From: Gluconobacter wancherniae NBRC 103581 | Lineage (GTDB): Bacteria; Pseudomonadota; Alphaproteobacteria; Acetobacterales; Acetobacteraceae | Length of the DNA: 64,000 nucleotides | Direction of reading: 5' to 3' | Assembly (NCBI RefSeq): GCF_007988885.1 | Contig: NZ_BJUZ01000001.1 | Location: forward strand, 372,001 to 436,000 | Shown here: positions 7,626 through 24,981 of the stretch, one piece after another | How positions within the stretch are numbered: position 1 is the first letter of the stretch | How the letters are laid out: the number at the start of each line of letters is the position of its first letter | Notes under the pieces: model-generated | The model's database searches: none | The model's input: the letters and a program-made list of their open reading frames with translations, nothing else | Told to the model about the DNA's origin: nothing | Position numbers and translations under genes: made by a program

Positions 7626-10016
7626 TTACAGAGAGGCGTTGAGGCTCAGGAAGAACATGCGCGGTGCAATCGGGAAGGCAGAGAACTGACCTGCCGTCTG
7701 TGTCGCGTTGACGGTGGACCATCCACGTGCATTTGTCAGATTGGTGATGTTGCCCTGAACCTTCAGGCTGGAAATGTGCGGGATGTGATGGAATGTGTAG
7801 CCCGCATTCATGCTGAACAGCGCGTAGGGCGAGACTGACATGTCGTTTGTGTAGGTGGCGTAACGCTTGCCGATCACGTCTCCGACGAACTGGCCATAAG
7901 CATTGCCCCAGTTTGTGGTGAAGACAAATTTCTCAGACCATGCCGGCATGCCGACGACGTTCTTGCCTGCAGTGTGCACCACGGTCGTGCCGGTGCTGTA
8001 GTTATCGTTGTAGACTGACTTATTGTACGACAATGCGTTGTAAAATGAGAAGTGCTCGCCGAAATGCGTCGTGAACGAGAAGTCCATACCGTCTGTCGTC
8101 ACTGAGCCAACGTTTGCGAGTGTCGTTGCGGCGCCAATGATAGAGGACAGGTTCTGGTTCGTGGCGACAGCCAGCAGGCGGTTCGAGAAGTGGACGTGAT
8201 AATATTCGATCTGACCTTCAATGGCGGTCAGTGGGCCGAGATTGATCTGACGGTGTTCACGAAGACCTGTTTCATAGGTCCATGAAGATTCCGGCTTTCC
8301 GTTCTTCTTGAATTCTTCGAATGCTGCCTGACTCGTGGCGCCCCACGGGGTGGCGTTGCCGAAGCCTGCGTCCTGGAACGAGCGCATATTCTCCTGGATG
8401 TTGGCGAACCACTGCTCGTTGGGCGTGATGTTCCAGACTGCACCAAATGCAGGGAGGAATGGCTTGGCGGCAGCAATGGTTCCACCCGGAACGGTGATGG
8501 CCGTGGCAGGTGAGAGCGAACCCGGTTTTGCAGCGACTGGCAGCGTGCCATTCGTGTAGCTCAGCTCGGATTTGAAGCCACCCATGAGGGTGAAGTTCTT
8601 CGAGATCTTCCAGCTGTCCTGAAGGTGGGTCACGAACGTGTTGGTGTAGAAATTGTTCGTGTACTGGTCGATCAGGGCGTTTTGCTGGCGCTGGTAAGGA
8701 GTCGTGGGGTTATTGGCATCCAGTGGATACCAGCGACGGGCCTGCGTGTTGTTGTTGCGCTCGTACCAGCCACCGACTTCGATGGAATGATTTCCGAGAT
8801 GTGCGCGCAGAGCGGTGATCAGGCCGCCGCGGTTATCCCAGTATTCGGTCGTACGTGTGGCGTAGCCCGAGCCACCGAAAACGTTGCTGAGGTTCTGGCC
8901 CGGAAAATATGCGCTGAAGAGTGTCGGCAGACCTGCGGCGCTGACTGGACCGGCAACCACGCCTTCACCAAGGTCATGGTGATAGTAGATTGAGTTGTCC
9001 CAGTGCAGGTTCGCATTGAAGTCATGCGTCCACTTTGAATAGGCAAGGAAATCTTCGCGCTGTGCTGCGGAGTAGTAGTTCCGGTAGTTCAGCGGGTTTG
9101 CCTTGTAGGAAGCCGAGTTCAGATAGGATTTCGCGTAATTGAAATCGGGGTAGGTGAACGGACGAACATAGATGCCCTGGCCCTGCGGGAGGGTTACGCT
9201 GTCTTCGTTGGGTTCAACCTTCTGGGACCAGTCGAAGAAGGTGGAGAAATGGTTGTGCTCGTCGTTATGCACGAACTTGGCATTGACCTGATATCCACCC
9301 TGATGGCCTGCAAAGTCCCATGCGCGGGCGTCCTGGCGGGAGAAGGAGGCATAGGCCGAATTGCCGTTGCCGAAATCACCCGTGTCGACGCGTGCGAACG
9401 TGCGGAACGTAGACCAACTGCCGAAGACCTGCTCGATCTGAGCGCCACGCTTGTGAAGCGGGTCCTGCGTTGTGAACTCGAGTGTTCCACCAAGATTGGA
9501 CGTCGATGCTGTGCCCAGAGCGCCAGCACCGGATGAGACGGACGCCGAACCGATATTCTCGCTGATGGCTGCGCGCTGCGGGGACAGGCCGTTATAGTTT
9601 CCGTAAGCCTGATCACCCAGCGGAATGCCATCGAGCGTGAAGCCGAGCTGGTTTTGGTTAAATCCGTGAACGTAGAGCGAAGAATTCTGTTCGTTGTTGC
9701 CCCAGGGGTCGGAGTTGTTGAACACGACGCCGGGCAGAATTTCGAGCGCTTTCATCGGGTTTATGCCGGGAAGGATACGCTGCAGCTGAACGTGACCCAG
9801 AGTCTGCTCTGAACGGGTACGGCGCGCTGTGATGACAAGCTGTTCGCTTCCACCAGAGACGGCTTTTGCAGCGTGCTGTGCGCGGTGTGGACGCGTGTGC
9901 TTGGCGCTGTTCGGTGTGGTGGCTGCATGTGCGATCGGCAATGCAGCCACGAGTGCCAGAGGAGAGCAGAACAGGGACAGCAGCGTGAGGCGCGTGCGCT
10001 GCAGACGATGAGACAT
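7626..10016 (-). CDS. TonB-dependent outer-membrane receptor (phosphate-starvation linked)
   Basis: A 796 aa outer-membrane receptor with a Sec signal peptide (cleavage about residue 32, AHA), a plug domain (about 60-190, starting GSEQLVITARR, containing NSSLYVHGFNQNQLGFTLDG) and a long beta-barrel ending in the aromatic-rich FFLSLNASL. The ATG at 10016 is preferred to an upstream TTG at 10070. The gene is directly followed by a secreted glycerophosphodiesterase and preceded by a Pho box, so the likely cargo is a phosphorus source such as a glycerophosphodiester or other organophosphate. That assignment is inference; the family alone would suggest a siderophore or vitamin. Confidence 0.9.
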   Translation of the reverse strand: MSHRLQRTRLTLLSLFCSPLALVAALPIAHAATTPNSAKHTRPHRAQHAAKAVSGGSEQLVITARRTRSEQTLGHVQLQRILPGINPMKALEILPGVVFNNSDPWGNNEQNSSLYVHGFNQNQLGFTLDGIPLGDQAYGNYNGLSPQRAAISENIGSASVSSGAGALGTASTSNLGGTLEFTTQDPLHKRGAQIEQVFGSWSTFRTFARVDTGDFGNGNSAYASFSRQDARAWDFAGHQGGYQVNAKFVHNDEHNHFSTFFDWSQKVEPNEDSVTLPQGQGIYVRPFTYPDFNYAKSYLNSASYKANPLNYRNYYSAAQREDFLAYSKWTHDFNANLHWDNSIYYHHDLGEGVVAGPVSAAGLPTLFSAYFPGQNLSNVFGGSGYATRTTEYWDNRGGLITALRAHLGNHSIEVGGWYERNNNTQARRWYPLDANNPTTPYQRQQNALIDQYTNNFYTNTFVTHLQDSWKISKNFTLMGGFKSELSYTNGTLPVAAKPGSLSPATAITVPGGTIAAAKPFLPAFGAVWNITPNEQWFANIQENMRSFQDAGFGNATPWGATSQAAFEEFKKNGKPESSWTYETGLREHRQINLGPLTAIEGQIEYYHVHFSNRLLAVATNQNLSSIIGAATTLANVGSVTTDGMDFSFTTHFGEHFSFYNALSYNKSVYNDNYSTGTTVVHTAGKNVVGMPAWSEKFVFTTNWGNAYGQFVGDVIGKRYATYTNDMSVSPYALFSMNAGYTFHHIPHISSLKVQGNITNLTNARGWSTVNATQTAGQFSAFPIAPRMFFLSLNASL

Positions 10017-10085
10017 TTTTGAGGCTTCCCGAAACGAGGCGATGTCGAAACGGGGGGAACCTATGCTCAACTGATCGGGAATAGT

Positions 10086-11563: not shown

Positions 11564-12793
11564 TCAGGCGATAGCGGAATGTGATGATTCAAGCCAGCGA
11601 AGCATGCCCTCTGCGGCGGCAAATGCAGTAGAAAAACATCCCTGCAGCAGATATCCGCCGGTTGGGGCCTCCCAGTCGAGCATCTCGCCAGCGGCGAACA
11701 GGCCGGAATGTCTGTGGAGCATGAAGTGTTCGTCCAGCGCGTCCTGCCGGATGCCACCTGCTGTGGAAATGGCACTGTCGAGAGCGTCTGTTCCCGTTAT
11801 GGTAAGGGGGAGGGCTTTGATTGTGTCCGCTAGAGTGGCGGGTGTTGCATCCTTGGGTGTTGCCGCTCGCAGCAAATCTCGGGACAGGCTGTCGAGCGCG
11901 AGAGACTTGCGAAGCCGGTTGGACTGGCTTTCACGGGGGCGTTGGGCCAGCAGGCGTCGAAGAATATCCGCTTGTGTCATCATGGGACGAAGATCGAGAG
12001 ACAGAACTGCTTTGCCATTTCTGGCTACCGTATCCCGTAATGGGGCTGACAAGGCATAGAGAGCAGAACCTTCCAGGCCGCGTGCGGTCAGGGTGAGGTC
12101 GCTTCGGGTCGTGCGTCCATCAAAATTCAGGGCGACCGAATGCAGGATTGCGCCGGAATGGCGTTCGCGAAATGTGTCGTTCCAGTCTGGAAGGAAGCCG
12201 CAATTGGCGGGAGCGAACGGCGTTATTTCCGAGGGTTCAAGCAGCGTGGTCCACTTTCCATCCGAACCCAGCCTCGACCAGCTTGCTCCCCCCATGGCCA
12301 ACAATGTTGCGTCTGCTTTTATTGTGGCTGGGCCGTCGGGTGTTGCGAATATGAGGCTGCCGTCTGCGTTTCGTGCTTTCAGTCGATGCCGCGTGCGGAT
12401 CTCTACATTTTGGACTGCAAGTCTTCCTAACCATGCTCGAAGCAGTGGGGAAGCTTTCATGGCTTTCGGAAAAATGCGGCCTGAACTGCCCACAAAGCAG
12501 GGTTGTCCCAGATCTTCTGCCCATTTGCGAAGGGCCGTGGGTGGAAAGGCTTTGAGGGCGGGCGCAAGCCACTCTTGTGCTGTGCCATAGCGCGTCAGAA
12601 AACGCTCGAAGGGTTCGTCATGTGTCAGGTTCAGGCCGCTTCGTCCGGCCATGAGAAATTTCCGCCCGACACTTGGCATGCTGTCGAAGATTGTGACCCT
12701 GCATCCCTTTGCCGATAGAAGTTCAGCGGCAAACAGTCCTGCGGGGCCAGCGCCAATAATGGCAATCGTGAAGGGCGGAGTGGAAGCGTTCAT
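11564..12793 (-). CDS. NAD(P)/FAD-dependent oxidoreductase (HI0933/TIGR03862-like flavoprotein)
   Basis: A 409 aa flavoprotein. The N-terminus carries the dinucleotide fold IAIIGAGPAGLFAAELL (about 10-26) and FDSMPSVGRKFLMAGRSGLNLTHDEP, the conserved GRKxxxxGxGRxNxTN-like block of the HI0933/BaiN family. The C-terminus has the FAD-closing segment AGEMLDWEAPTGGYLLQGCFSTAFAA. The start at 12793 is the ATG just before the fold. It is divergent from panC with 69 bp between starts. Substrate unknown; relatives are annotated as aminoacetone oxidase-like or aromatic-ring reductases, with weak support. Confidence 0.82.
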   Translation of the reverse strand: MNASTPPFTIAIIGAGPAGLFAAELLSAKGCRVTIFDSMPSVGRKFLMAGRSGLNLTHDEPFERFLTRYGTAQEWLAPALKAFPPTALRKWAEDLGQPCFVGSSGRIFPKAMKASPLLRAWLGRLAVQNVEIRTRHRLKARNADGSLIFATPDGPATIKADATLLAMGGASWSRLGSDGKWTTLLEPSEITPFAPANCGFLPDWNDTFRERHSGAILHSVALNFDGRTTRSDLTLTARGLEGSALYALSAPLRDTVARNGKAVLSLDLRPMMTQADILRRLLAQRPRESQSNRLRKSLALDSLSRDLLRAATPKDATPATLADTIKALPLTITGTDALDSAISTAGGIRQDALDEHFMLHRHSGLFAAGEMLDWEAPTGGYLLQGCFSTAFAAAEGMLRWLESSHSAIA

Positions 12794-12862
12794 GGCGCGA
12801 TCATTGCCATGCGAGGCGTGTTTTGTCAGGTTCCCTCGCGCCAGTGCACAGGGAGGCAACAG

Positions 12863-13690
12863 ATGCAGGTTTTTTCAACCGTAGAAGATTTCAGGAAAGC
12901 CCGGACGGGATTTGCTGATCTTGGATTCGTGCCGACCATGGGGTTTCTGCATGAAGGACATCTGAGTCTGGTGCGGCGTGCGAAAGCTGAAAATGGTGCT
13001 GTGGCCGTCAGCATTTTCGTAAATCCTACCCAGTTTGGCCCTACCGAAGATCTGTCCAGCTATCCGCGTGATCTGGAGCGTGATCTGGAGTTGTTGCGCG
13101 AAGCTGGTGCGGATCTGGTTTTCACGCCGGATGTTGATGTTCTGTATCCGCAAGGCTTTGTGACGAAAATAGATGTGGCGGGTGTGGCTGCGGAAATGGA
13201 GGGGCGATCACGCCCGGGGCATTTTTCCGGGGTGGCAACTGTAGTGACCAAGCTGTTCAATATCGTGCAGCCGCAGCATGCTTATTTTGGTCAGAAAGAT
13301 GCGCAGCAATGCGCCGTTGTTCAGCGGTTTGTGCGGGATCTGGATATTCCTGTCCGGATCGTTGTTTGTGAAACCTCCCGCGAGGAAGATGGGTTGGCGC
13401 GATCCAGTCGTAATGTGCGGCTGAGTGCGGAAGATCGCCTGCGTGCGCCTGCACTATATCGCGCATTGACAAAAGCTGCGGAGGCCTTTCAGGCGGGCGA
13501 GCGCAGGACGTCCGTGCTGGAACAGATCATGAGTGAAGAACTCCATGCCGGTGGGATTGACGTTGTTGATTATGCGACGGTTGTTTCCCCTGACACTTTT
13601 CTGCGTCCGGATATTCTGAGTGAGAAGGGGCTGGCACTTCTTGCTGTGAAATGTAGTGGGGTTCGTTTGATCGATAATATGCTCCTCTAA
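12863..13690 (+). CDS. panC: pantothenate synthetase (pantoate--beta-alanine ligase)
   Basis: Joins pantoate and beta-alanine with ATP to make pantothenate for CoA. The 275 aa length fits the family. Seen: FVPTMGFLHEGHLSLVRRA with the HxGH nucleotidyl-transferase motif, VSIFVNPTQFGP, the FGQKDAQQCAVVQRFVRDL block with substrate contacts, and SSRNVRLS near 180 with the KMSKS-like role. The ATG at 12863 has GGGAGG 6 bp upstream; the frame upstream is in the neighbouring promoter. panB is not adjacent. Confidence 0.95.
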   Translation: MQVFSTVEDFRKARTGFADLGFVPTMGFLHEGHLSLVRRAKAENGAVAVSIFVNPTQFGPTEDLSSYPRDLERDLELLREAGADLVFTPDVDVLYPQGFVTKIDVAGVAAEMEGRSRPGHFSGVATVVTKLFNIVQPQHAYFGQKDAQQCAVVQRFVRDLDIPVRIVVCETSREEDGLARSSRNVRLSAEDRLRAPALYRALTKAAEAFQAGERRTSVLEQIMSEELHAGGIDVVDYATVVSPDTFLRPDILSEKGLALLAVKCSGVRLIDNMLL

Positions 13691-13750
13691 TCAGATTGCT
13701 CTCATGCGCTATAAGAGGCTGACACGAGGTTCTATGAAAGGTGTTCAGAC

Positions 13751-15448
13751 ATGCAGAAGACAATCGCGCAGCGCGTCGCCCAGGGGCAGGGCAGGGAGGC
13801 AGCCGATCTGGTCATCCGGGATGTGCGCCTTTTTGATCTGGTGACAGGGGACCTCGTTCCTACAGATATCGCGATCTGCGGGGATCGTATTGTTGGAACG
13901 TATGGTTCATATGAAGGTCGCAAGGTCATTGAAGGTCGCGGCCGAATTGCTGTTCCCGGCTTCATCGATACGCATCTGCACGTTGAATCCTCGCTCGTCA
14001 CGCCTTTTGAATTCGATCGGTGCGTGTTGCCGCATGGCGTTACCACGGCGATCTGTGACCCCCACGAAATGGCGAATGTTCTGGGAAGTCAGACATTTGA
14101 CTATTTTCTGGGGGCGGCAGAACGCGTGATCATGGATCTGCGTGTCAATCTGTCGAGCTGCGTTCCGGCAACTCCGATGGAGACGTCTGGTGCCACATTG
14201 CAGGCCGATGATCTGGCTCCTTATCACGATCATCCCAAGGTGATTGGCCTTGCGGAATTTATGAACATTCCCGGCGTTCTGAACGGGGATGCGGGATGCC
14301 TCGACAAGCTGGCGATGTTTTCTGGTGGTCACATTGACGGTCATGCTCCGCTTCTGCGTGGCAAGGCGCTGAACGGGTATCTGTCTGCTGGTATTTCAAC
14401 GGATCATGAGGCCACCGCAGCGGATGAGGCACTGGAGAAGGTGCGTAAGGGGATGGTCGTGCTGATCCGGGAAGGATCGGTATGTAAGGATCTGGAAGCC
14501 CTTGTTCCACTCCTGACGGTTGCGACGTCTCCGTTCTTTGCTTTCTGCACGGATGATCGAAATCCGCTTGAGATTGCTCATGAGGGTCATCTTGATTTCC
14601 TGATCCGCAGAGCGATTGAGCTTGGGGTGGAGCCGCTGGCTGCGTATCGGGCGGCTTCCATGTCCGCGGCGGCGGCTTTTGGATTGAGAGATCGTGGGCA
14701 AATTGCGCCGGGCAAGCGTGCGGATATTGTTCTGCTTGATGATCTTGAGAAATGTGCTGTGTCCGACGTCATCAGTGCGGGTCGTTTAGTAAACGACGCC
14801 CTTTTTGCTGGTCGGGATATTCTACCGCCTGTTGGGCTGCAGAGTGTGAAGCTGGCGGGCACCATATCGGCGAAAGATATGGAAATTTCTGGAAGTGGTG
14901 TTGAACGGCCGGTGATGGGAATCATTCCAGGCCAGATCATTACGGAGTTCCTGCGCTGTGATCTGCCGGAGCGTAATGGCTGTGTTATGGGTGATATCGG
15001 GGCAGACGTTGCAAAAGTCTGTGTTGTTGCGCGGCATGGGCACAACGAAAATATTGGTCGCGGCTTCGTCAAGGGATTTGGCTTGAAGCAGGGCGCGCTT
15101 GCTTCATCTGTTGGCCATGACAGTCACAATATCTGCGTTGTGGGGACGGATGACGCGGATATGGCACTCGCCGTTAACCGGCTTTCGGAAACGGGCGGCG
15201 GATTTATAGCGGTCAGGGACGGAGAGATCGTAGCGGAACTGCGTTTGCCGGTTGCAGGACTGATGAGTGATGGTACTTTCGAGCAGGTTCGTGATGATCT
15301 GATCGTGCTTCGCAAGGCTTCAAAGGAAATGGGAGTTTCACTTGAAGAACCATTCCTCCAGCTTGCATTTCTGCCGCTGCCCGTGATCCCGCATCTGAAA
15401 ATTACAGATATCGGGATGATCGACGTGAAGACGATGGAGTTTGTGTAA
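13751..15448 (+). CDS. ade: adenine deaminase
   Basis: Deaminates adenine to hypoxanthine for purine salvage. The 565 aa amidohydrolase-fold protein has [21 protein letters not shown] near 74 with the metal-binding Hx[44 protein letters not shown] with further ligands, and the DDRNP segment of the bacterial AdeC type. AAAGGTG precedes the ATG. It stands alone between panC and a small DUF2171 gene. Confidence 0.94.
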
Positions 15449-15479
15449 GCACTGGGCCTGAGTTCGCCCAAAGAAAGCG

Positions 15480-15513
15480 GACATGGCAGGACTGCGAGCG
15501 CTGCTGCCATGTC
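15480..15513. terminator. hairpin downstream of ade
   Basis: GACATGGCAG at 15480-15489 pairs perfectly with CTGCCATGTC at 15504-15513. It lies 31 bp after the ade stop. There is no T-run, so it may be a processing or rho-assisted end rather than an intrinsic terminator. Confidence 0.45.
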
Positions 15514-15695
15514 TGTGATTCGGAAATGATTTGATAATATTTCTGAGTGGTCGGTTCTTTGTTCAGTGCAATCATGCTCGAGGATAATTCTTTCTAGATG
15601 ATTGAATATTGATCCGATTTTTCCGGCATACATGAGGCTGGGGAACATTTTTCATAGTCTCGCGTTTGACGAAGGTATGAGAAAGGAAATCGATC

Positions 15696-15920
15696 ATGGT
15701 TGACTTTGCAAAGATCAAAAAAAACGCTGAGATCATTGGCGCAGATGGTGTTCATGTTGGCACCGTTGATCAGATTGAGCCGCATCGCATCCGCTTGAAG
15801 AAAGAAGGCACGGCTCCTCGTCAGAACCATTATATTTCCGTGGGACTGATTGCGGATATTGAAAACGGCACTGTTCGTCTCAGCGCGAATGCTGATGTAG
15901 CTGTGACGCTCGAAGATTGA
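15696..15920 (+). CDS. DUF2171 domain protein
   Basis: A 74 aa cytosolic protein consisting of one DUF2171/PRC-barrel-like domain: VDFAKIKKNAEIIGADGVHVG, then VDQIEPHRIRLKK and HYISVGLIADIENG. The family has no defined function. AAAGGA lies 8 bp before the ATG. It has its own upstream gap of about 250 bp and a hairpin just after it, so it is probably monocistronic. Confidence 0.85.
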   Translation: MVDFAKIKKNAEIIGADGVHVGTVDQIEPHRIRLKKEGTAPRQNHYISVGLIADIENGTVRLSANADVAVTLED

Positions 15921-15928
15921 TACTCGGG

Positions 15929-15956
15929 GCCTGTCTGGCGAAAAAATCAGACAGGC
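15929..15956. terminator. hairpin between DUF2171 and TonB receptor genes
   Basis: GCCTGTCTG (15929-15937) pairs with CAGACAGGC (15948-15956) over an A-rich loop. It sits between two convergent genes. The T-tract is poor on either strand. Confidence 0.6.
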
Positions 15957-15972
15957 GCTTACTTAATGGTGT

Positions 15973-18105
15973 TCAGAAGTCAGAAATGACGGAGAAATAC
16001 GTTCCGCGTCTCTGGCCATATTGAGCCTGATAAACGCCGACACCGCTTCCGTCCCGAAGCTGGTAACGCCTGTCGAAAAGATTGACGATGTCCACCCGGA
16101 ATTTGGCATCATAACCAAATGGCGTGTGCGTTAAGGTATATTGGTACCCAGTATTGAAAATGTCATACTGAGGCTGCTTTTTGAGATTGGCAAAGCCGCT
16201 TCGAAGACCATTTCCATAAATGAAATCGATATAAGCCATATGGTGCTTGCTACTATATGACGCGCCCGCGCTTGCCGTATAACGTCCCTGATGGTCGAGC
16301 TGAATGGCATTTCTGCGGATATAAGCGAGTTCATCCACTGCGAACTGATATTCTGCGGAATTGATATTTTTTGCTGCCGTTTGGACGAATGAAAAGTTGC
16401 CAAAAACAGACCATGGGCCGTGGTGCCAGGAGCTTCCAAATTCCGCGCCATAAACCTGTCCACGTCTATAGCTGAAAGGCGCGAGAATAACGGCGCGTCC
16501 AAACTGTCCGAGATCTGTGAGATTATGGGCCCACTTGCTGTATGCGTCGATCGTGATCTGAAAATCATGCGTGACGTGCTGTAGAATTCCAGCGTCAATA
16601 TAATGGGATGTCTCAACGCGTGTCGGGGTGTCTGTTGTGTTTTCTGGTGCGTTTGTTGTTCCGCTGAAACGAGCGAGTGTTGTGGGGTGGATGTACTGCG
16701 GCGAGGGTGGCGCAAAATATCGCGAATAACCGAGATGGAATGTTGTTTTGCCGGTCGGCTTCCAGACAATATTTACACGAGGGCTGAGTTGGCCTTGGTT
16801 TCCGAATGAAGATGCAAAACGGTCATATCGGGCACCGTAGTTCAGCGTGAGTTTTTGGGTGATATGATATTCATCCTGAATATATGCGCCTGCTTCGGCA
16901 GACCAGTTTCCTGTATTGTCAATCATGCGCTGGGGAATTGCTGACAGCTGCAGGCCCTTTTCATCGACAGGAAAGAGGAGTGTATCTGTATCGAGGCGCT
17001 CCGCTGTGTATTGTCCCAGAAAGCCTGCACGTAGGGTGTGCTGATGTGTGATTTTCCACGATAGGTCGAACTGTGCGCCTGCTGTCGTGAAGTCGTTGAT
17101 TTCGTGCTGGGCGACCCCCTGAAACATGAGGTCTCGAATAGGGTCTGGGGTATAATCAATGCGACCGTAGCGGAAAAATGGAGAGACCTGAAAATTCAGT
17201 TTGTCCAAACTATGCTGATACGACAATACGGCGTAGTAATTCTGCTCAGTCTGGCTGTCATTTAAGTATCGGGATTGAAGATTTTTGTCATTTGGGCTGC
17301 TTCCGCTCACCGCATAGATTTGTGGGAGGCCGGGTGTATTGGGAAGCTCGAACTTCGCGTAGGACGCGCTGGTCAGGAGTGAGATGCGGCTTGTATCGTC
17401 CAAGCGCCATGAGAAATAGCCAAAACCCTTTTCCTGCTCTGTAACGTCATGGATCGGCCGGAATGAACTGGTTGGATTTTCAATGCCGATATTGTTGCGA
17501 TTGAACGACAGGGTCGTGAAATATTCAAAGCGGCCTTTTTCGCCCCCCAATTGAAGGGAAGGGGCGAAGGTATTGTAGCTGCCTCCGTACAGGGAAAGCT
17601 GGTTGTGTTTCAGACTGGAGCCGCTTTTGGTTTTGACGTCCACGATCCCAGCGGTTCTAAACCCGAACTGCGCGGGGAGGGTCCCTGCCAGCAGATCTAC
17701 GGAGTCAATGATGCGTGTATCCAGTTCCTGACCAAAGCCGTTCAGGCCTTCAGGGAGAAGGACGCCATTGACACGATATGTCAGGCCACCATGTTCGCCG
17801 CGTACGTGAACCTCTCCATAGCTGTCCAGAACGACACCGGGCATGCGCAGCATGATCTGGTTAAAGGCGGCATTCTGGCCTTGAGGTGTGGCTTGAATCT
17901 GCCGCTGATCCACGCCGTAGGACACGGCGCCAAGACTTGGGAAAATGCGACCACGTTCCTGATTCAGCTTCCCGGTTACTGTAATTTTCTCGGTGGGCGT
18001 TACGGAGTTCTGAGGAACAGTTCTGGTATTTTTTTCTGCTGTTTTGGTGGCTGGAAGCGGATCTGCGTGTGCCTTTACGGCAATTAGCAGTGCGAAGGAA
18101 CTCAT
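15973..18105 (-). CDS. TonB-dependent outer-membrane receptor (predicted manganese-regulated)
   Basis: An outer-membrane receptor with a plug domain (PQGQNAAFNQIMLRMPGVVLD, then EVHVRGEHGGLTYRVNGVLLP and LPAQFGFRTAGIVDVKTKSG) and a barrel ending TYFSVISDF. The frame is open to an ATG at 18201, but a TATAAT box and an MntR-like palindrome lie at 18166-18183, so translation from there is doubtful. The ATG at 18105 (710 aa) or a TTG at 18123 is likelier; neither has a strong ribosome site. The hydrophobic segment SSFALLIAVKAHA is the signal peptide. Gene order receptor, mntH, mntR plus the operator points to Mn(II), or a Mn chelate, as cargo. The family is certain; the cargo is inference. Confidence 0.88.
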   Translation of the reverse strand: MSSFALLIAVKAHADPLPATKTAEKNTRTVPQNSVTPTEKITVTGKLNQERGRIFPSLGAVSYGVDQRQIQATPQGQNAAFNQIMLRMPGVVLDSYGEVHVRGEHGGLTYRVNGVLLPEGLNGFGQELDTRIIDSVDLLAGTLPAQFGFRTAGIVDVKTKSGSSLKHNQLSLYGGSYNTFAPSLQLGGEKGRFEYFTTLSFNRNNIGIENPTSSFRPIHDVTEQEKGFGYFSWRLDDTSRISLLTSASYAKFELPNTPGLPQIYAVSGSSPNDKNLQSRYLNDSQTEQNYYAVLSYQHSLDKLNFQVSPFFRYGRIDYTPDPIRDLMFQGVAQHEINDFTTAGAQFDLSWKITHQHTLRAGFLGQYTAERLDTDTLLFPVDEKGLQLSAIPQRMIDNTGNWSAEAGAYIQDEYHITQKLTLNYGARYDRFASSFGNQGQLSPRVNIVWKPTGKTTFHLGYSRYFAPPSPQYIHPTTLARFSGTTNAPENTTDTPTRVETSHYIDAGILQHVTHDFQITIDAYSKWAHNLTDLGQFGRAVILAPFSYRRGQVYGAEFGSSWHHGPWSVFGNFSFVQTAAKNINSAEYQFAVDELAYIRRNAIQLDHQGRYTASAGASYSSKHHMAYIDFIYGNGLRSGFANLKKQPQYDIFNTGYQYTLTHTPFGYDAKFRVDIVNLFDRRYQLRDGSGVGVYQAQYGQRRGTYFSVISDF

Positions 18106-18167
18106 GATTATTGTGTGGAGCAATAAACGCTGCTCAGAAATCCGACGCTTAAGAACATACTTATAAT

Positions 18168-18183
18168 TATAGCATATGCTATA
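18168..18183. promoter_or_regulatory. MntR-box-like palindrome in the TonB receptor promoter
   Basis: TATAGCATATGCTATA is a perfect 16-bp palindrome. Its core ATAGC-N4-GCTAT is the core of the known E. coli MntR box (AACATAGC-N4-GCTATGTT). On the minus strand it overlaps a TATAAT -10 hexamer (18171-18166), so a bound repressor would block the receptor promoter. Confidence 0.7.
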
Positions 18184-18256
18184 TATTGATGTTGAAAACA
18201 TGCCTGTTGGTTCCCAAGACGGACTTAAGTTCAGATGGTTTGGCTAGCGGATGCTG

Positions 18257-19642
18257 TCAGCCGATGACGGTGTCGTAGAGCAGTTTGATGTTAAGGATCA
18301 GAATGATGCCTGCCACGAGCCAGGAGAGGCCTTTGAGCCATGGTGTGATGACGAAGTTGCCCATTTTCCTTCGGTCTGACACGAACATCACCAGTGGGAT
18401 GACCGCAAAAGGCAACTGCATGGAAAGGATGACCTGACTGCTGACCAAGAGCGTACCGACCCCTTTTCCACCATAAAAAACCGTTACGATGGCGACGGGA
18501 ATAATAGCCAAACCTCGCGTCAGCAGGCGTCTGGCCCAGTGTGGAATGTGGAGCCTGAGAAACCCCTCCATGATGATCTGGCCAGCGAGTGTTCCCGTAA
18601 CGGTGGAATTCGTGCCTGCGGCAAGGAGGGCAAGGGCGAACAGCGTTGATGCAATCCCAAGCCCCAGAATTGGTGAAAGCAGGCGGTAAGCATCCTGTAT
18701 TTCGGCTACGTTTTGATGGCCGGTATTATGGAATGCTGCCGCCGCAACGATTAGAATTGCGGCATTGATGAAAAGAGCCAGCATCAGCGCAATCGTGCTG
18801 TCCCATGTCACCCACCGGATGGCCTCACGTCGCCCGTTTTCAGTACGCTCATAAGCGCGTGTCTGGACGATGGATGAGTGCAGATAAAGATTATGGGGCA
18901 TCACGGTGGCACCAATGATGCCGATCGCGACGTAGAGCATTGCTGGAGTGGTTATGATTTTTGGCGATGGAACCAGCCCCTGCAGCACGCCTGCGATCGG
19001 GGGGGCTGCGGCAAAAACCTGTACTGCGAAGCAAAGGGCGATGATGCTGAGAAGCCCGATGACAAAGGCCTCAAGGTAGCGAAAGCCTCGGTTCATCAGC
19101 ATCAGGACAATTAATGCGTCGCCTATCGAGAGAAGCGCTCCGCCGAGCAGTGGCAGCCCAAACAGAAGTTGTAATGCCACTGCTGTGCCTATGACTTCCG
19201 CAAGATCGCAGGCGATGATGGCAAGTTCACATGCGAGCCAGAGGAAGACATTGACCACCGGAGGAAAATGATCGCGACAGGCCTGTGCAAGATCCCGCCC
19301 AGTCGCGATGCCCAGTCTTGCAGCAAGCGCCTGCAGGAGAATGGCCATCAGGTTGGACAGGACGATAATCGTGAGCAGGGTATATCCGAACTGGGCTCCC
19401 CCCTGCAGATCCGTTGCCCAGTTCCCGGGGTCCATATAGCCGACGGAAATCATGTAACCAGGCCCGACGAATGCTAGAAAACGACGAAACCAGGGGGCTC
19501 CTGCATCGGCAACCGGAATGGTAGAAAATGCCTCAGGCAGGCTCTGGCGCGCCTGATCGCTTTCGGACGAGAAACGCCAAGATGTGTTTTTGCTGCCTGC
19601 TTGGGTGGTGGCTTTGGGGGCGTTTGGAGTCTGGTCTGGCAT
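18257..19642 (-). CDS. mntH: proton-coupled Mn(II) transporter, Nramp family
   Basis: Inner-membrane Mn2+/H+ symporter, 461 aa with about 11 membrane segments. Seen: the Nramp TM1 metal-site motif [14 protein letters not shown] and the TM6 motif with [15 protein letters not shown]; both hold the metal-binding Asp, Asn and Met-related positions of the family. I use the ATG at 19642; the longer frame starts with a TTG at 19663. A hydrophilic N-terminal extension of about 60 residues precedes TM1. A degenerate MntR box lies about 30 bp upstream, and mntR is divergent. Confidence 0.95.
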
Positions 19643-19672
19643 GATTATCGCATCCAAGCGCAATATGAATTG

Positions 19673-19690
19673 TTATGCAATATGCTATAA
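19673..19690. promoter_or_regulatory. degenerate MntR box between mntH and mntR
   Basis: On the mntH strand the site reads TTATAGCATATTGCATAA: one exact half-site ATAGC, spacer ATAT, and a shifted second half TGCAT. It shares ATATGCTATA with the palindrome at 18174-18183 when read on the plus strand. It lies 30 bp from the mntH ATG, and a plus-strand TATAAT (19686-19691) within it could serve mntR. Confidence 0.55.
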
Positions 19691-19807
19691 TGTTCAGCAG
19701 TGGGATATTTTATAAGAAGAAAAATACCTTCTATCGCTGGTAGTTCAGTGTGAAATTCATTATTCGGTCCCGAATATTGTTTGTGACGATGATCAGGACG
19801 AGGCGGT

Positions 19808-20287
19808 ATGGTGCGGAAGAAGACAGCGGGAAGCCTGCCGGACATGGAAACCCATTCAGAAGGGTTTCGGGCAAACCGCGCCGCCAGACGTAAAGTGTTG
19901 GTTGAGGACTACGTCGAACTGATCTCGGATCTGCTGTCTGAAGGAAATGAGGCGCGACAGGTGGATATTGCCGGGCGCCTTGGGGTGTCACAGCCCACGG
20001 TGGCCAAAATGCTCTCGCGACTGTCTACAGAAGGGTTTGTCATTCAGAAGCCTTATCGCGGTGTGTTTCTCACCCCCGCAGGTCAGGAAATGGCAGACAA
20101 GGCGAGGCTGCGGCATCAGGTGGTTGAGGCATTTCTGTTGGCTCTTGGTGTAAGTGAAGACAACGCTCGCATTGATGCCGAGGGCCTTGAACATTATGTC
20201 GGATTCGAAACGCTTCAGGCATTCGAAGCCGCGTTACAGGGGGGGCTTCAGGCCTTTATGAAGGGCGTGAGATCCTGCCGGGATTGA
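19808..20287 (+). CDS. mntR: manganese-responsive repressor MntR (DtxR family)
   Basis: Mn(II)-sensing repressor of Mn uptake, 159 aa. It resembles E. coli MntR closely: HSEGFRANRAARRKVLVEDYVELISDLL, then the winged helix EARQVDIAGRLGVSQPTVAKMLSRL (about 52-76) and the metal-domain segment RLRHQVVEAFLLALGV with DAEGLEHYV, whose His and Glu residues are ligands. Being the E. coli type, it should read the ATAGC-N4-GCTAT box seen at 18168 and 19673. Divergent from mntH. Confidence 0.94.
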   Translation: MVRKKTAGSLPDMETHSEGFRANRAARRKVLVEDYVELISDLLSEGNEARQVDIAGRLGVSQPTVAKMLSRLSTEGFVIQKPYRGVFLTPAGQEMADKARLRHQVVEAFLLALGVSEDNARIDAEGLEHYVGFETLQAFEAALQGGLQAFMKGVRSCRD

Positions 20288-20474
20288 GATAAAATGTGAA
20301 TTTCATTCTTGAAAATCCTCCATGTTGGTGATTTTAATTATTATTTTACAAATAATCCTAGCATAAAATTTATTCCATTTATGTGGGAGTAATTGTCATG
20401 AATGGTTGTCTTGTAAGGATTATATTTCAAGCGTATTAATAATTATGAATTTATTTACTTTGGGATGATCATTG

Positions 20475-21872
20475 ATGCACAGTCGCTGCCTTGTAATTTT
20501 TAAGACACACTTTTGGGATGGTGTGGTGCAGAGACAACTAGAACGCCTCCAGAAGGTTGTTCAAGGAAGAAATGAAAAAATAGAAATAAGTGTTATTTTG
20601 TTTGTCGACGAAACGAATGGGCACATTGAAATTCCAGAAGAGCTGAATTGTATAATTTTCCGTTGTAAATCAGACGACGTTAAAGATTATGGAATTGTAA
20701 CTGATCCTAATCACAATATATTTTGGTATAGTAATGATATTCCGGCGATTATTTTGGCCATTAATAATCCAGAGTATAATTATTATGTGATGTTAGAGTA
20801 TGATGTTGTAATAAATAAAAATATAGAAGAAATAATTTATTTGGCAAAAAAAAATCATATTGATTTTCTCGCTCACCCTATATCCTGTTCAAATCAGTCG
20901 TGGGCCTGGAAAGGTACATGTGTTGATTATTATGAAGAAAGTGATTTCGTAAAATATTTAAATTGTTTTGCATTGTTTTCTAGGGAGGCATTATTGTGGG
21001 TTATGAAGAGGAGGCTTTATTTTTCTAATCTTATTAGAGAAGGAAAGCTTAATATCTTCCCAAATGCTGAAGCTTTTGTCGCGACGGAATTATTAAAAAA
21101 AGGATTTACTCTGGCAAATTTGTCGGATTTCGGGCCTGTTCCTCATTATGATTGGAGCCCTTCATGGCTGGAAGATGATTTGGCTTTGTTCTCTGAGGAC
21201 GCATTTATTCATCCAGTAAGTGGTAAGGAAAAATATATTTCAACTACAGATTTTTCTCATCCATTCGATTATTTTAATCATAATTCGTTTCTTTATAAGC
21301 GTATTATGCGTCTTCCTGATGAGATGCTGCCTGCTCTTTATGAAAAATTGCGTAGCGTTGCTTCTGTAGACCAACTCCAGAAATTGCGCTCTGACATGAT
21401 AATACACATGAGTAATGAAGGAAGGGCAAGGTATGGCCTCGATGTTGTTAGTATTGGACGCAATTGTGCTGCATGGCAAAGTTCAACGGGTCAAGATTCT
21501 CATTCGGAGAATGAGGCATGTGATGTACTGAACCATATTCCAAATGGTCATTATTCTTTTCACACTGTCGCTGAAGAACATCCGTGGTGGATGGTTGATT
21601 TAGGAGAAATAAAATTTGTTAACGTAATGAAAGTATATAACCGAAATTTTATTCCAGATCGAGCATTTGGAATCCAACTTTTTTCGTCTAAAGATAAAAA
21701 AGATTGGATTTTATGCGATTATCATCGTTTGGATTCTCCTTTTGAAGGGTTGAACGGGACTCCTTTATTTCTTGAAGTGTATAATGAGGTTCGTTATTTA
21801 AAGCTTATTCTTCCATATTATGGATGTTTAAATCTTGATCATATTGATATTATTGGTAAAATTTTTAGTTAA
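20475..21872 (+). CDS. putative glycosyltransferase with C-terminal discoidin-like domain
   Basis: A 465 aa cytosolic or surface-associated protein in AT-rich DNA. The N-terminal ~280 residues look like a GT-A-type transferase (YNYYVMLEYDVVINKNIEEI, an acidic-strand motif, then AHPISCSNQSWAWKG). The C-terminal ~130 residues (CAAWQSSTGQDSHSENEACDV, then HPWWMVDLGEIKFVNVMKVYNR) fit the F5/8 type C / galactose-binding fold. The ATG at 20475 is used instead of the TTG just before it. Codon use and base composition differ sharply from neighbours, suggesting transfer. Likely surface polysaccharide or protein glycosylation, unproven. Confidence 0.6.
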   Translation: MHSRCLVIFKTHFWDGVVQRQLERLQKVVQGRNEKIEISVILFVDETNGHIEIPEELNCIIFRCKSDDVKDYGIVTDPNHNIFWYSNDIPAIILAINNPEYNYYVMLEYDVVINKNIEEIIYLAKKNHIDFLAHPISCSNQSWAWKGTCVDYYEESDFVKYLNCFALFSREALLWVMKRRLYFSNLIREGKLNIFPNAEAFVATELLKKGFTLANLSDFGPVPHYDWSPSWLEDDLALFSEDAFIHPVSGKEKYISTTDFSHPFDYFNHNSFLYKRIMRLPDEMLPALYEKLRSVASVDQLQKLRSDMIIHMSNEGRARYGLDVVSIGRNCAAWQSSTGQDSHSENEACDVLNHIPNGHYSFHTVAEEHPWWMVDLGEIKFVNVMKVYNRNFIPDRAFGIQLFSSKDKKDWILCDYHRLDSPFEGLNGTPLFLEVYNEVRYLKLILPYYGCLNLDHIDIIGKIFS

Positions 21873-22294
21873 ATTAACCTCAATTGTATTCAAAAGGGTT
21901 AAAAAATCAATCAATTATTATTCTATTATTTCCAAATGACTCAAAAGCGCTCCTTCAGCGCTGTTGCTAGGCGCCCCCGTTTCATGCATTGTATTATGGG
22001 CGCTTGGCTTAAAACCAGTTTATTTGACTGTCTGTTTATGGGCATTGAACCAGATTGATGACTGTCCCAGACTATGTCCTCATCAAATAAACGCTGGCTG
22101 TCGTGATACGTCTTGGGTGTGCATTTCTTCTAGCGTTTATGCTCAGCGGATATACATGCACGTGATCAGCGAAAACCCTTAATATTCACGACTCCGTCTC
22201 GGGCTTCTCAGTCGTTCCGTTGCTCGGCGGATGGGAAGATTCACTTATTATGCCGGTGACAATTGGTACGCTGAATGCTGTACTGTTTATGTCG
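21873..22294. other. gene-poor stretch with a membrane-protein-like fragment
   Basis: No intact gene. A plus-strand frame from 21964 reads LLGAPVSCIVLWALGLKPVYL and then VCLWALNQIDDCPRL, the look of the last transmembrane segment of a transporter, but loses sense after about 50 codons. I treat it as a relic of an unidentified membrane protein. The stretch ends at the IS remnant. Confidence 0.35.
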
Positions 22295-22800
22295 CTAGGA
22301 CCAATCGACATTCAAGTGATCCAGATCCTGGCTACTGCGAGATGAATGAAGCCTGTAGAATGGATGGCTTTTACGATCGTAGCGCTTTGCGAAACAACGA
22401 AAATTTTTGAGACGATTGAAGCACTCCTCGATACGGTTGCAGTCTTTGTAAAAAGTCCGGTCGTGAGGGATGACTATCTTGCGGTTCCGCTTTGACGGAA
22501 TGACAGCCTTTGCGTTCATGATAGTAATCCGTTCTCTGAATCCTTTGCTGTCATAAGTCTGATCCGCGATTACTGCACTCGCAGTCTGGCCTTCGAGCAA
22601 TGCAGATGCTTGGGTGGGGTCATGAACCTGTTCAGCTGTGATAATAAACTGTAACGGTCGCCTCAGAGCGTCAGAAAGCATGTGGATATCGGTGGTCAAT
22701 TCAGCTCGGGAGCGTCCCAGCACCTGATTTTGAGCCCCCCTTTTTCGGTTGTTGCCTGCTGGTGAGCGTGGACAATGGTGCTGGTGATCTCTCCAACTTA
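22295..22800 (-). mobile_element. IS5-family transposase remnant (IS1031-like)
   Basis: The minus strand encodes the DDE half of an IS5-family transposase: GRSRAELTTDIHMLSDALRR, VIADQTYDSKGFRERI, and AVIPSKRNRKIVIPHDRTFY followed by NRIEECFNRLKNFRCFAKRYDRK. Upstream, TSTIVHAHQQATTEKGG is in another frame, so one frameshift lies near 22725-22735. A second lies after residue ~120, where the usual FIHLAAAM tail is lost. The N-terminal half and the terminal repeats are missing, so it is inactive. Confidence 0.75.
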
Positions 22801-23352
22801 TGGATTGATTTGCATCATCTTCCTCCTGCGATGCTACAGGCCGAGCCGATCGTTAAGATATCCTATTGCGCCACTCACGTTCGTGGAGATGTGATAAAGT
22901 ATGCTATTGGCGATGCTCCGACCCAGAAGCGGAAGTGGTGCTGGAACGCAAACTGCTTGGGGCTGTGTTGGGTGCCCCGTTCTTCGCATACCGCGCCGTT
23001 TTGTTGGGCAGTGCGGACAATCGCGTCATATACCCCGACGACCGGGCACAGACATTGCCGTCTCCCAAGCATTTACACTTCAATTCAAGTGTCAGCGTAA
23101 AAATCCAGACGGTTAAATTGAAATAATGTATTCGATTATTTTTTAAAATAAAATGGTCTATATATTGTAGAAAATTACCAGTATTTTGGTTTATTTTATC
23201 CCTTTTACTCCCTTGTCGGTAGTCAGTTAATATCGAACATCGAGATTTTTTTTCTGATTTATCCCATACGGCCCATCTAAAAGGCGCGTAGCGAAGTTCA
23301 GTAAAACTCACGCTTCGCACCTGTTCAGTTCATCACTTGCTTTTGGTTGGGC
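22801..23352. other. degenerate intergenic DNA beside the IS remnant
   Basis: No convincing gene. Overlapping short frames on both strands carry protein-like stretches, for example plus-strand LERKLLGAVLGAPFFAYRAV near 22950, but no start, family or continuous domain. The part after 23100 is AT-rich. Best read as decayed insertion DNA. Confidence 0.4.
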
Positions 23353-24981
23353 TCAGGACAGCTTTGAAAGGCCTTCCAGAAGGCGGGCAATTGCCTCTGC
23401 TCCCGGGTCCGGGATATTTTTGAGACTCTCGCTCGGAACGTAGGCTGCGCGGCCGGCTCGTGCAGGCATCGTGCGGGTTGCATTGGCGCCTTCACGCGCA
23501 GCTTTGGCTGCCTGTTTCAGGTCCCCGGTTTTAAGTGCTGCTATGGCCGGGAACAGGGCATCAAGCATCGTACGGTCCCCGGGGGATGCGCCGCCATATC
23601 TGTGCATGCGCTCCAATCCGGCCTCAAGTCCATCGCGCCAGGCTGTGTTTTGTCCCGCTGTTGCGAACATGATGGACAACAACACACCACTCGAACCCCC
23701 AGCATTGCGCGCCAGAAGCCTTCCGAGCGTTTCACAGAGCTCCTGTGGAGAGGTCAGAGGAAGTCGGTCGATGTCTTTCAGGATGACGCGGCTAGCTTCG
23801 GCAAAGGTTGAACCTGCATCGCCGTCGCCGATTTGCGCATCGAGCGCATTCAGATCCTTTTCATTGTCGAGAAGGATGCTGGCTCCGTGAGTGATAAGTT
23901 TCTCGAGATAAGCGTTCGATGAAGGCTTATATGCAAATGTATCAGGCAAGGTTGGGGTGGGCTTTGTCTGGATCTTGCTAAATGGCGCAATACCCGGCCA
24001 AGCCCAAGGTTCAACTGGAAACTTCAGGGCCTGAATAAAATCAGTTCGGGCAGGGATCGCAGACAGGGAAAAGCCGTACATATCCAAGGAAGTCATCATG
24101 GGGGCAGGGCCAATCAGGAATTCTATGCGTTCAGCAAGAGAAGTTCTGGAAAGCGCATCTACGATTGCCTGGGCTTCCAATACGGGGACTGCGCCCAGCA
24201 TATTGACCATGACGGCCTGAGGTTCATCTGTCAGATACGGGGTAAGAGCTTCCGTAGTTTTCGCGACCAGGGCATCCAGCTGCTCTACAGCAATACGATC
24301 GGTGCCGGGCTCTCCATGAATTCCGAGGCCCAGTTCTGCCTCATCTTTATTTAGTCGCGTTTTGTGGTCAGGGTCATAAACATTGACGTCTGATAATGAG
24401 AGACCAAGAGATACTGTTGCCTTGATGGCATCCATGGCGGCTTGTTTAACGTCCGCCAAGGAGGCGCCAGTCTCCGCAGCATATCCTGCAATTTTCTGGA
24501 CGAGGACAGTTCCGGCGATACCTCTGGCGTTGGTATCGTGGCCGAGTGCTGTGTCATCAGCCACGATGACAAGTTCGACCTTCTTTCCAGCAAGGCGCGC
24601 CTGCTCTGCCGCAAGGCCGAAGTTCAAGCGGTCGCCAGTATAGTTTTTGACGACCAATAGGCAGCCCGAATCTCCGGTTACTTCCAGTATTGCGGCGAGA
24701 ATGGCATCCACATTGGGTGAGGCGAAGAGTGCGCCGCAGACGGCTGCGGTTAACATTCCGGCTCCGACGAAGCCCGCATGGGCGGGTTCATGGCCTGAGC
24801 CACCTCCCGAAACAATTGCGACTTTCGATTTATCCCAGTCTTTGCGCAGAACGACATGGATGTTGTCATGTCCTTCAAGTCGACAGAGATGCTGGCCGGT
24901 CGATGATCTGAGAAATCCGTCGATGCCCTCGGTAACGAGCGTGTCACGGTGATTGTAAAAGCGTTTCATCGTATCTTTCAT
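23353..24981 (-). CDS. dhaKL: dihydroxyacetone kinase, fused DhaK-DhaL
   Basis: Phosphorylates dihydroxyacetone to DHAP with ATP, joining DHA and glycerol oxidation to central metabolism. The 542 aa chain has DhaK (about 1-330) with GGGSGHEPAHAGFVGAGML, FGLAAEQAR and GLGIHGEPG, in which His222 should form the covalent hemiaminal with DHA. DhaL (about 345-540) has DAQIGDGDAGSTF for Mg-ATP and AGGSSGVLL. A fused ATP-dependent form rather than the PTS-dependent DhaKLM. Two in-frame ATGs (24981, 24969) are possible. It lies between insertion relics but is intact. A direct-repeat pair sits just upstream. Confidence 0.94.
   Translation of the reverse strand: MKDTMKRFYNHRDTLVTEGIDGFLRSSTGQHLCRLEGHDNIHVVLRKDWDKSKVAIVSGGGSGHEPAHAGFVGAGMLTAAVCGALFASPNVDAILAAILEVTGDSGCLLVVKNYTGDRLNFGLAAEQARLAGKKVELVIVADDTALGHDTNARGIAGTVLVQKIAGYAAETGASLADVKQAAMDAIKATVSLGLSLSDVNVYDPDHKTRLNKDEAELGLGIHGEPGTDRIAVEQLDALVAKTTEALTPYLTDEPQAVMVNMLGAVPVLEAQAIVDALSRTSLAERIEFLIGPAPMMTSLDMYGFSLSAIPARTDFIQALKFPVEPWAWPGIAPFSKIQTKPTPTLPDTFAYKPSSNAYLEKLITHGASILLDNEKDLNALDAQIGDGDAGSTFAEASRVILKDIDRLPLTSPQELCETLGRLLARNAGGSSGVLLSIMFATAGQNTAWRDGLEAGLERMHRYGGASPGDRTMLDALFPAIAALKTGDLKQAAKAAREGANATRTMPARAGRAAYVPSESLKNIPDPGAEAIARLLEGLSKLS

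Follow-up and report, generated by a model that had tools for sequence, protein, structure and literature searches.

The locus examined here, in Gluconobacter wancherniae NBRC 103581, raises the question of why the gene for a TonB-dependent receptor stands next to mntH and mntR, the genes for a manganese importer and a manganese repressor, and of whether this receptor takes manganese across the outer membrane. To our knowledge, outer-membrane passage of manganese has mostly been attributed to porins, and few receptors are known. The window, by which we mean the whole stretch of 64,000 nucleotides analysed (contig NZ_BJUZ01000001.1, positions 372,001 to 436,000), had received an initial annotation in which receptor, MntH and MntR were proposed to form a manganese regulon. 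At the sequence level this proposal is well supported by MntR-type sites that lie at both the receptor gene and mntH and are conserved in many acetic acid bacteria. Altogether, the receptor probably serves a regulon for manganese uptake as its outer-membrane arm and is, by descent, a branch of a mostly Zur-type family. The elements on which the argument depends are the following:

15973..18201, minus strand: TonB-dependent receptor, 742 amino acids as the longest open reading frame (ORF), with a true start that may lie downstream of the operator (Pfam PF00593).
18168..18183, no strand assigned: predicted MntR-type operator of the receptor, TATAGCATATGCTATA (exact match and conservation in orthologues).
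18257..19663, minus strand: mntH, Nramp Mn(2+) importer (NCBIfam PRK00701, 637.7 bits, cut-off 430).
19674..19689, no strand assigned: mntH-type operator, TATAGCATATTGCATA on the minus strand (differs from the receptor site at 3 positions; conserved).
19808..20287, plus strand: mntR, manganese repressor of the E. coli type, divergent from mntH (NCBIfam PRK11050, 224.3 bits, cut-off 153).

The site at the receptor is a perfect palindrome, present as a single exact copy in a scan of the whole 2.78-Mb genome. Its core has the form of an ATAGC-N4-GCTAT inverted repeat lying near a promoter, and matches what we take, as the initial annotation did, to be the consensus of the E. coli MntR box. The likeness to E. 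coli comprises both the type of MntR and this core; we know of no TonB-dependent receptor under MntR in that species. Within the window, two matches to TATAGCATATGCTATA were found at up to 3 mismatches, in comparison with an average of 0.08 in 100 shuffles, none of which reached 2. Across the genome the 16-mer has 6 sites in total, one of them exact and 5 with 3 mismatches, as compared with 15 for the reversed control. Because sites with 3 mismatches are not rare relative to that control, the mntH copy taken alone has no genome-wide significance, and it is conservation, not counts in a single genome, that decides; by this measure the observation is confirmed.

For this purpose orthologues were drawn from two sources: a sample of 200 genomes of the family, 15 of which hold the receptor at an identity of at least 54%, and a pattern-limited scan of named genomes, which gave 26 loci in Gluconobacter, Acetobacter, Gluconacetobacter, Tanticharoenia, Brytella and Acidomonas. 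The resulting non-redundant set comprises 34 loci in genomes with MntR, from which L065, L068 and L069 were omitted because their contigs are those of L109, L094 and L091, and 4 loci in genomes without an MntR match (G046 and G061 were reported without MntR; G126 and G136 are missing from the list of MntR matches). The initial annotation had proposed to look for the 16-mer before orthologues in other Acetobacteraceae, and this search proved decisive: of the 34 receptors of MntR-positive genomes, 33 have at their 5' end a site that differs from TATAGCAWWTGCTATA at no more than 2 positions, and the remaining one, L066, has a site with 3 mismatches, or 4 when only the receptor site is read. None of 1169 control windows (1176 minus 7 made up entirely of N) came within 3 mismatches of TATAGCAWWTGCTATA; when the plain 16-mer was used in a previous control, 5 of 634 windows had up to 3. 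The four orthologous loci of MntR-less genomes have no box, their closest sequences differing from the window 16-mer at 5, 6, 7 and 8 positions. In the class as a whole, TATAGCAWWTGCTATA was present in one of 289 genomes, namely this one. The 14-bp core ATAGCAWWTGCTAT gave 19 matches in 18 of 32 genomes (reversed control, 1/32), all of them at the receptor locus: 18 at the receptor and one, in A. senegalensis, before a shortened mntH adjoining the receptor. In the other 14 genomes the operator sites diverge from this strict core. That the palindrome is a chance sequence or the site of another regulator is extremely unlikely: AT-rich sites with 3 mismatches do occur elsewhere in the genome, but the 33 conserved loci, its absence from all four loci where MntR went undetected and the placement of the 19 core matches speak against it. 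Regulation of the receptor by MntR is well supported at the sequence level, and binding of the repressor is predicted.

The repressor and importer themselves fit this picture. The best match of MntR among solved structures is 2h09, presumably the E. coli protein, with an identical recognition helix (GVSQPTVAKML), and its residues D34, E37, H103, E125, E128 and H129 align with the positions that we take to be the metal ligands of Bacillus subtilis MntR. Together with the PRK11050 score above cut-off, this agrees with the earlier assignment of mntR to the E. coli type. The degenerate copy of the palindrome that had been reported before mntH was also recovered, at 19674-19689 and with 3 mismatches, and it is better described as a distinct, nearly fixed mntH form: in all 32 rows from MntR-positive genomes (29 non-redundant), mntH is preceded by a site that differs from TATAGCATATTGCATA at 2 positions at most, while the mntH rows of two MntR-less genomes (L077, L079) differ from it at 6 positions. 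In these two genomes mntH adjoins the receptor, and in L079, which was left out of the receptor tree, both genes are split between frames.

In the window the mntH stop codon is followed after 55 nt, on the same strand, by the ATG of the receptor. At 11 of the 34 loci an intact mntH lies ahead of the receptor; in the remaining 23 it is absent from that place or reduced to a remnant (68 amino acids in L070, 290 in L087, 58 in L091). In 22 of these 23 the mntH-type operator is nevertheless kept, 106-493 bp before the receptor's own site, and in the other one, L087, it stands before the shortened mntH. Since the mntH-type operator is retained where the gene is gone, the receptor appears to have kept the operator of mntH after mntH had left. 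The remnants in L070, L087 and L091 lie between the mntH-type operator and the receptor, with a full-length or near-full mntH match elsewhere in the same genome. In 14 Gluconobacter genomes (L111-L124), mntR and mntH are found together at another place, with mntH aligned nearly to the edge of the sequence examined there.

This arrangement could also mean that read-through from mntH accounts for most of the receptor's expression, the palindrome being a minor or roadblock site within the ORF. The short distance to mntH, the position of the site inside the frame in the window and the retention of the mntH-type operator in 23 of 23 loci without intact mntH would agree with such a reading. We consider it very unlikely, however, because the receptor site is conserved independently, coincides in part with the top-scoring promoter-like site of the region and, at several loci, stands well before the aligned protein begins. 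The promoter-like site in question is the following:

18166..18195, minus strand: promoter-like site TCAACA-18-TATAAT with extended -10 (consensus match only).

A consensus scan of 15800-20400 ranked it first, at 10/12 and with TG before the second hexamer, among 7 promoter-like sites, a number in no clear excess over shuffles (4.5, sd 2.1). The palindrome spans most of its spacer and most of its -10. In this regard, the initial annotation had described a palindrome overlapping a TATAAT box in front of a TonB receptor; site and overlap were found as described, but the palindrome lies inside the longest ORF, with its ATG at 18201, and not in front of it. If the promoter at 18166-18195 is in use, translation would therefore begin downstream and not at that ATG. 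In Acetobacter fallax (L085), a stop codon interrupts the frame that crosses the site, and a signal-peptide-like start, as read from the DNA, follows further downstream.

Co-occurrence was also compared. MntR is present in each of the 26 named genomes that carry the receptor, and in the family sample MntH accompanies it in 15 of 15 genomes, compared with 78 of 200 overall, a figure confounded by kinship. MntR was found in 11 of these 15, which says little because it is common in the family (149/200). In the receptor tree, 25 rows of the clade are separated from 21 other relatives with a support of 100/100, and the MntR-less rows occupy two places.

Where the receptor came from is suggested by its kin outside this clade, which share about 35-43% identity with it and occur in Acetobacteraceae and in other alphaproteobacterial families. 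A set of 53 relatives was assembled from 43 of the 85 non-orthologous family rows, picked by hand down the ranking, and 10 receptors from outside the family; ten more were added later. Upstream of 35 of the 53, a Zur-type palindrome, GTTATRTTATAAYRTAAC, was found within 3 mismatches, in comparison with 2 of 1169 control windows (7 within 4). This pattern was matched at the same threshold in none of the 34 loci of the MntR clade (1 of 34 at 4 mismatches) and none of the 4 MntR-less loci, whereas MntR-type sites within 2 mismatches were found in none of the 53 relatives. Among the second receptors of the ten other MntR-positive family genomes, examined once the pattern had been fixed, 7 matched GTTATRTTATAAYRTAAC with no more than 3 mismatches and all 10 with no more than 4; none had an MntR-type site within 2 mismatches. 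As for the neighbourhood, Zur or ZnuA-family genes accompany 8 of the 53 relatives, and MntR or MntH genes none. In four of them (L167, L168, L206, L209) the gene for a ZnuA-family binding protein lies directly upstream of the receptor on the same strand, preceded by a best Zur-type site with 4, 4, 3 and 1 mismatches, respectively. In sequence, GTTATRTTATAAYRTAAC resembles the Zur motif of Paracoccus denitrificans confirmed by gel shift (PMC5387054) as well as the znuK Zur site of Caulobacter (PMC4176598).

The genome of G. wancherniae offers both types of operator. Its two best Zur-type sites, with 2 mismatches each, lie at a paralogous receptor (L082) and between zigA, which scores above the NCBIfam ZigA cut-off, and a DUF1826 gene; one of three sites with 3 mismatches directly precedes a ZnuA-family gene. 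The Zur model is the best match of its Zur candidate, yet below cut-off, and its ZnuA-family protein stays below cut-off for both the zinc and the manganese models. A zinc label for the receptor family is thus likely rather than proved. With an MntR-type operator in the clade and a Zur-type one in most of its relatives, it seems that one branch of a receptor family of probable zinc type has passed to the manganese regulon. This contrast between the operators of the MntR clade and those of its Zur-type kin is the new part of the analysis, and two related receptors under MntR-type and Zur-type operators in one cell would offer a natural case of a shift from regulon to regulon. Among the relatives, small membrane-like proteins are encoded just upstream of four receptors (L165:4781-5137, L166:5598-5954, L170:5854-6162 and L174:5246-5638), one of them with a weak DUF2946 match and three without a match.

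A second case may exist in another genus of the Acetobacteraceae, where a relative with 36-38% identity is divergent from an MntR homologue (L080:4552-7275 and L081:4216-6933). Between receptor and homologue, L081 has a TGTAGC-type inverted repeat, TGTAGCCAAAGCTACA, with a weaker counterpart in L080; the mismatches to the MntR-type pattern are 4 in L081 and 5 in L080. The switch of operator may therefore have occurred twice, L080 and L081 forming a separate branch. Relatives from outside the family were also considered as manganese receptors and rejected: in the 10 examined of 13 matches, neither MntR or MntH nearby nor an MntR-like site at the receptor was found in any. One of these loci, L173, has one MntR-like site away from the receptor.

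If the receptor belongs to the manganese regulon, MntR loaded with Mn(2+) would bind 18168-18183 over the extended -10 as well as its own site before mntH. Under plentiful manganese it would keep the expression of receptor and mntH low, and under scarcity both would be released. The receptor would then use TonB energy to move Mn(2+) or a manganese chelate into the periplasm, from which MntH would carry the metal into the cytoplasm. That the chelators are acids made by acetic acid bacteria is speculation. Operators, their conservation, their absence where MntR went undetected and the linkage with mntH are read directly from the loci, as is the Zur-type operator of the relatives; from them we infer the direction of the operator change, the repression, the release in low manganese and the cargo, which, given operator and mntH linkage, is probably manganese.

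On the cargo, a further reading keeps the receptor under MntR with a substrate other than manganese, namely zinc, divalent metals in general or an iron chelate, manganese control serving to couple metal supplies. The Zur-type boxes in 35 of 53 relatives at 35-43% identity, the Zur or ZnuA-family genes near 8 of them and the lack of an identified clade-specific metal site favour it; since the relatives look zinc-linked, the cargo could be manganese, zinc or a chelate. We regard it nonetheless as fairly unlikely, given the absence of the Zur-type box from all 34 loci of the MntR clade and the linkage with mntH, found also in two genomes where MntR went undetected. Moreover, each of the 11 MntR-positive family genomes with the receptor also encodes another relative, and all 11 of these have a Zur-type site with no more than 4 mismatches, so that the zinc role would already be served.

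Several observations weigh against a manganese receptor of zinc-type descent. The zinc-linked look of the relatives leaves zinc possible as cargo, while the zinc label is itself weakened, as the pattern GTTATRTTATAAYRTAAC was composed after inspecting the relatives, the Zur homologues fall short of the Zur cut-off, and the ZnuA-family protein of L168 reaches the cut-off of neither AztC (zinc) nor MntC (manganese). Among the 8 relatives with Zur or ZnuA-family neighbours, just 2 (L176, L205) have a Zur-type box with no more than 3 mismatches at the receptor and not elsewhere in the neighbourhood. When up to 3 mismatches are allowed, the Zur-type pattern is hardly more frequent in this genome than its reversed control, with 5 places (counted as 4 forward and 4 reverse) compared with 3 forward and 2 reverse. 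The loci are related, and their counts are not independent trials. The operator falls within the longest receptor ORF, with an uncertain start codon. Finally, the residues specific to the clade are not enriched in acids (8/98 vs 26/245 of the shared ones, Fisher p 0.55) and no metal site was found among them, and the AlphaFold2 models are poor, with a mean pLDDT of 47.2 from 22 sequences and 40.9 from 27.

The protein itself is recognised as a receptor by its barrel domain (Pfam PF00593, E 2.3e-22). The plug domain PF07715 was unreported at E 0.001; conservation is high at residues of about 85-190. The genome has 35 plug matches in total. A profile of the orthologues against solved structures gave weak matches to PqqU/YncD only (E 8e-4), and the same kind of search by sequence with the paralogue of this genome gave no match. 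Five of the eight clade-specific D/E residues lie at 367-436, but in the absence of enrichment these acids are not used as evidence for a metal site. No CxxC was found in the window receptor, and among 46 rows only L077 and L078 have one, both in the N-terminal leader. Another TonB-dependent receptor, with plug and barrel by Pfam, lies at 7626-10070 of the window.

In this line, the comparison with known systems is instructive. The initial annotation had named MnoT of Burkholderia thailandensis as precedent, and as described in one paper, MnoT is a TonB-dependent outer-membrane manganese transporter that works with TseM, a manganese-binding protein secreted by the type VI system (PMC13217887). 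MnoT stands as a functional precedent, but a closer one is reported in the same source, an MntR-controlled TonB-dependent receptor of Stenotrophomonas maltophilia, whose gene has an MntR box, lies in the vicinity of mntR and mntH and is accompanied by the gene for a thioredoxin-fold partner (PMC13217887). Compared by description only, MnoT and the window receptor are both TonB-dependent, MnoT relying on TseM. The Stenotrophomonas receptor shares with ours the vicinity of mntR and mntH and the MntR box, but, according to that paper, it has a CQNC plug motif, where the window receptor has no CxxC, and the thioredoxin-fold partner, of which no counterpart was seen beside the window receptor among the listed ORFs of at least 100 amino acids, with the downstream ORFs checked. 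ZnuK and ZnuL of Caulobacter crescentus are zinc TonB receptors controlled by Zur (PMC4176598). They resemble the window receptor as alphaproteobacterial TonB receptors under a metal-responsive repressor, and their Zur sites resemble the box of its relatives; again by description only, they differ from it in metal and regulator, an MntR-type operator and mntH linkage being found here.

A fuller history, in which a Zur-controlled branch of zinc type exchanged its Zur box for an MntR box, became linked to mntH and turned into an outer-membrane importer dedicated to manganese and independent of the MnoT and CQNC types, has in our view about even chances of being correct. Since in many acetic acid bacteria both the operator and the order of the genes link the receptor to MntR and MntH, active manganese uptake across the outer membrane becomes directly testable in them. 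A literature search brought up no paper recognised as dealing with this receptor, though its reach did not include a paper of 2006 on the iron and manganese regulons of alphaproteobacteria.

The surroundings of the three genes provide some minor observations. An Rfam scan of 12000-24000 gave no match. Downstream of the receptor, an ORF on the minus strand at 15124-15648, without a Pfam match, lies mostly antisense to the convergent neighbour at 13751-15448 (plus strand), which encodes adenine deaminase (TIGR01178, 583.1 bits, cut-off 472.5). Adenine deaminase is manganese-dependent in E. coli, and a link to manganese in this neighbourhood is possibly coincidence. Between this gene and the receptor, a small DUF2171 protein is encoded at 15696-15920 (plus strand). 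Just past mntR, the segment at 20290-22300 has a G+C content of 35.7%, compared with 54.2% for the window, and is perhaps foreign DNA.

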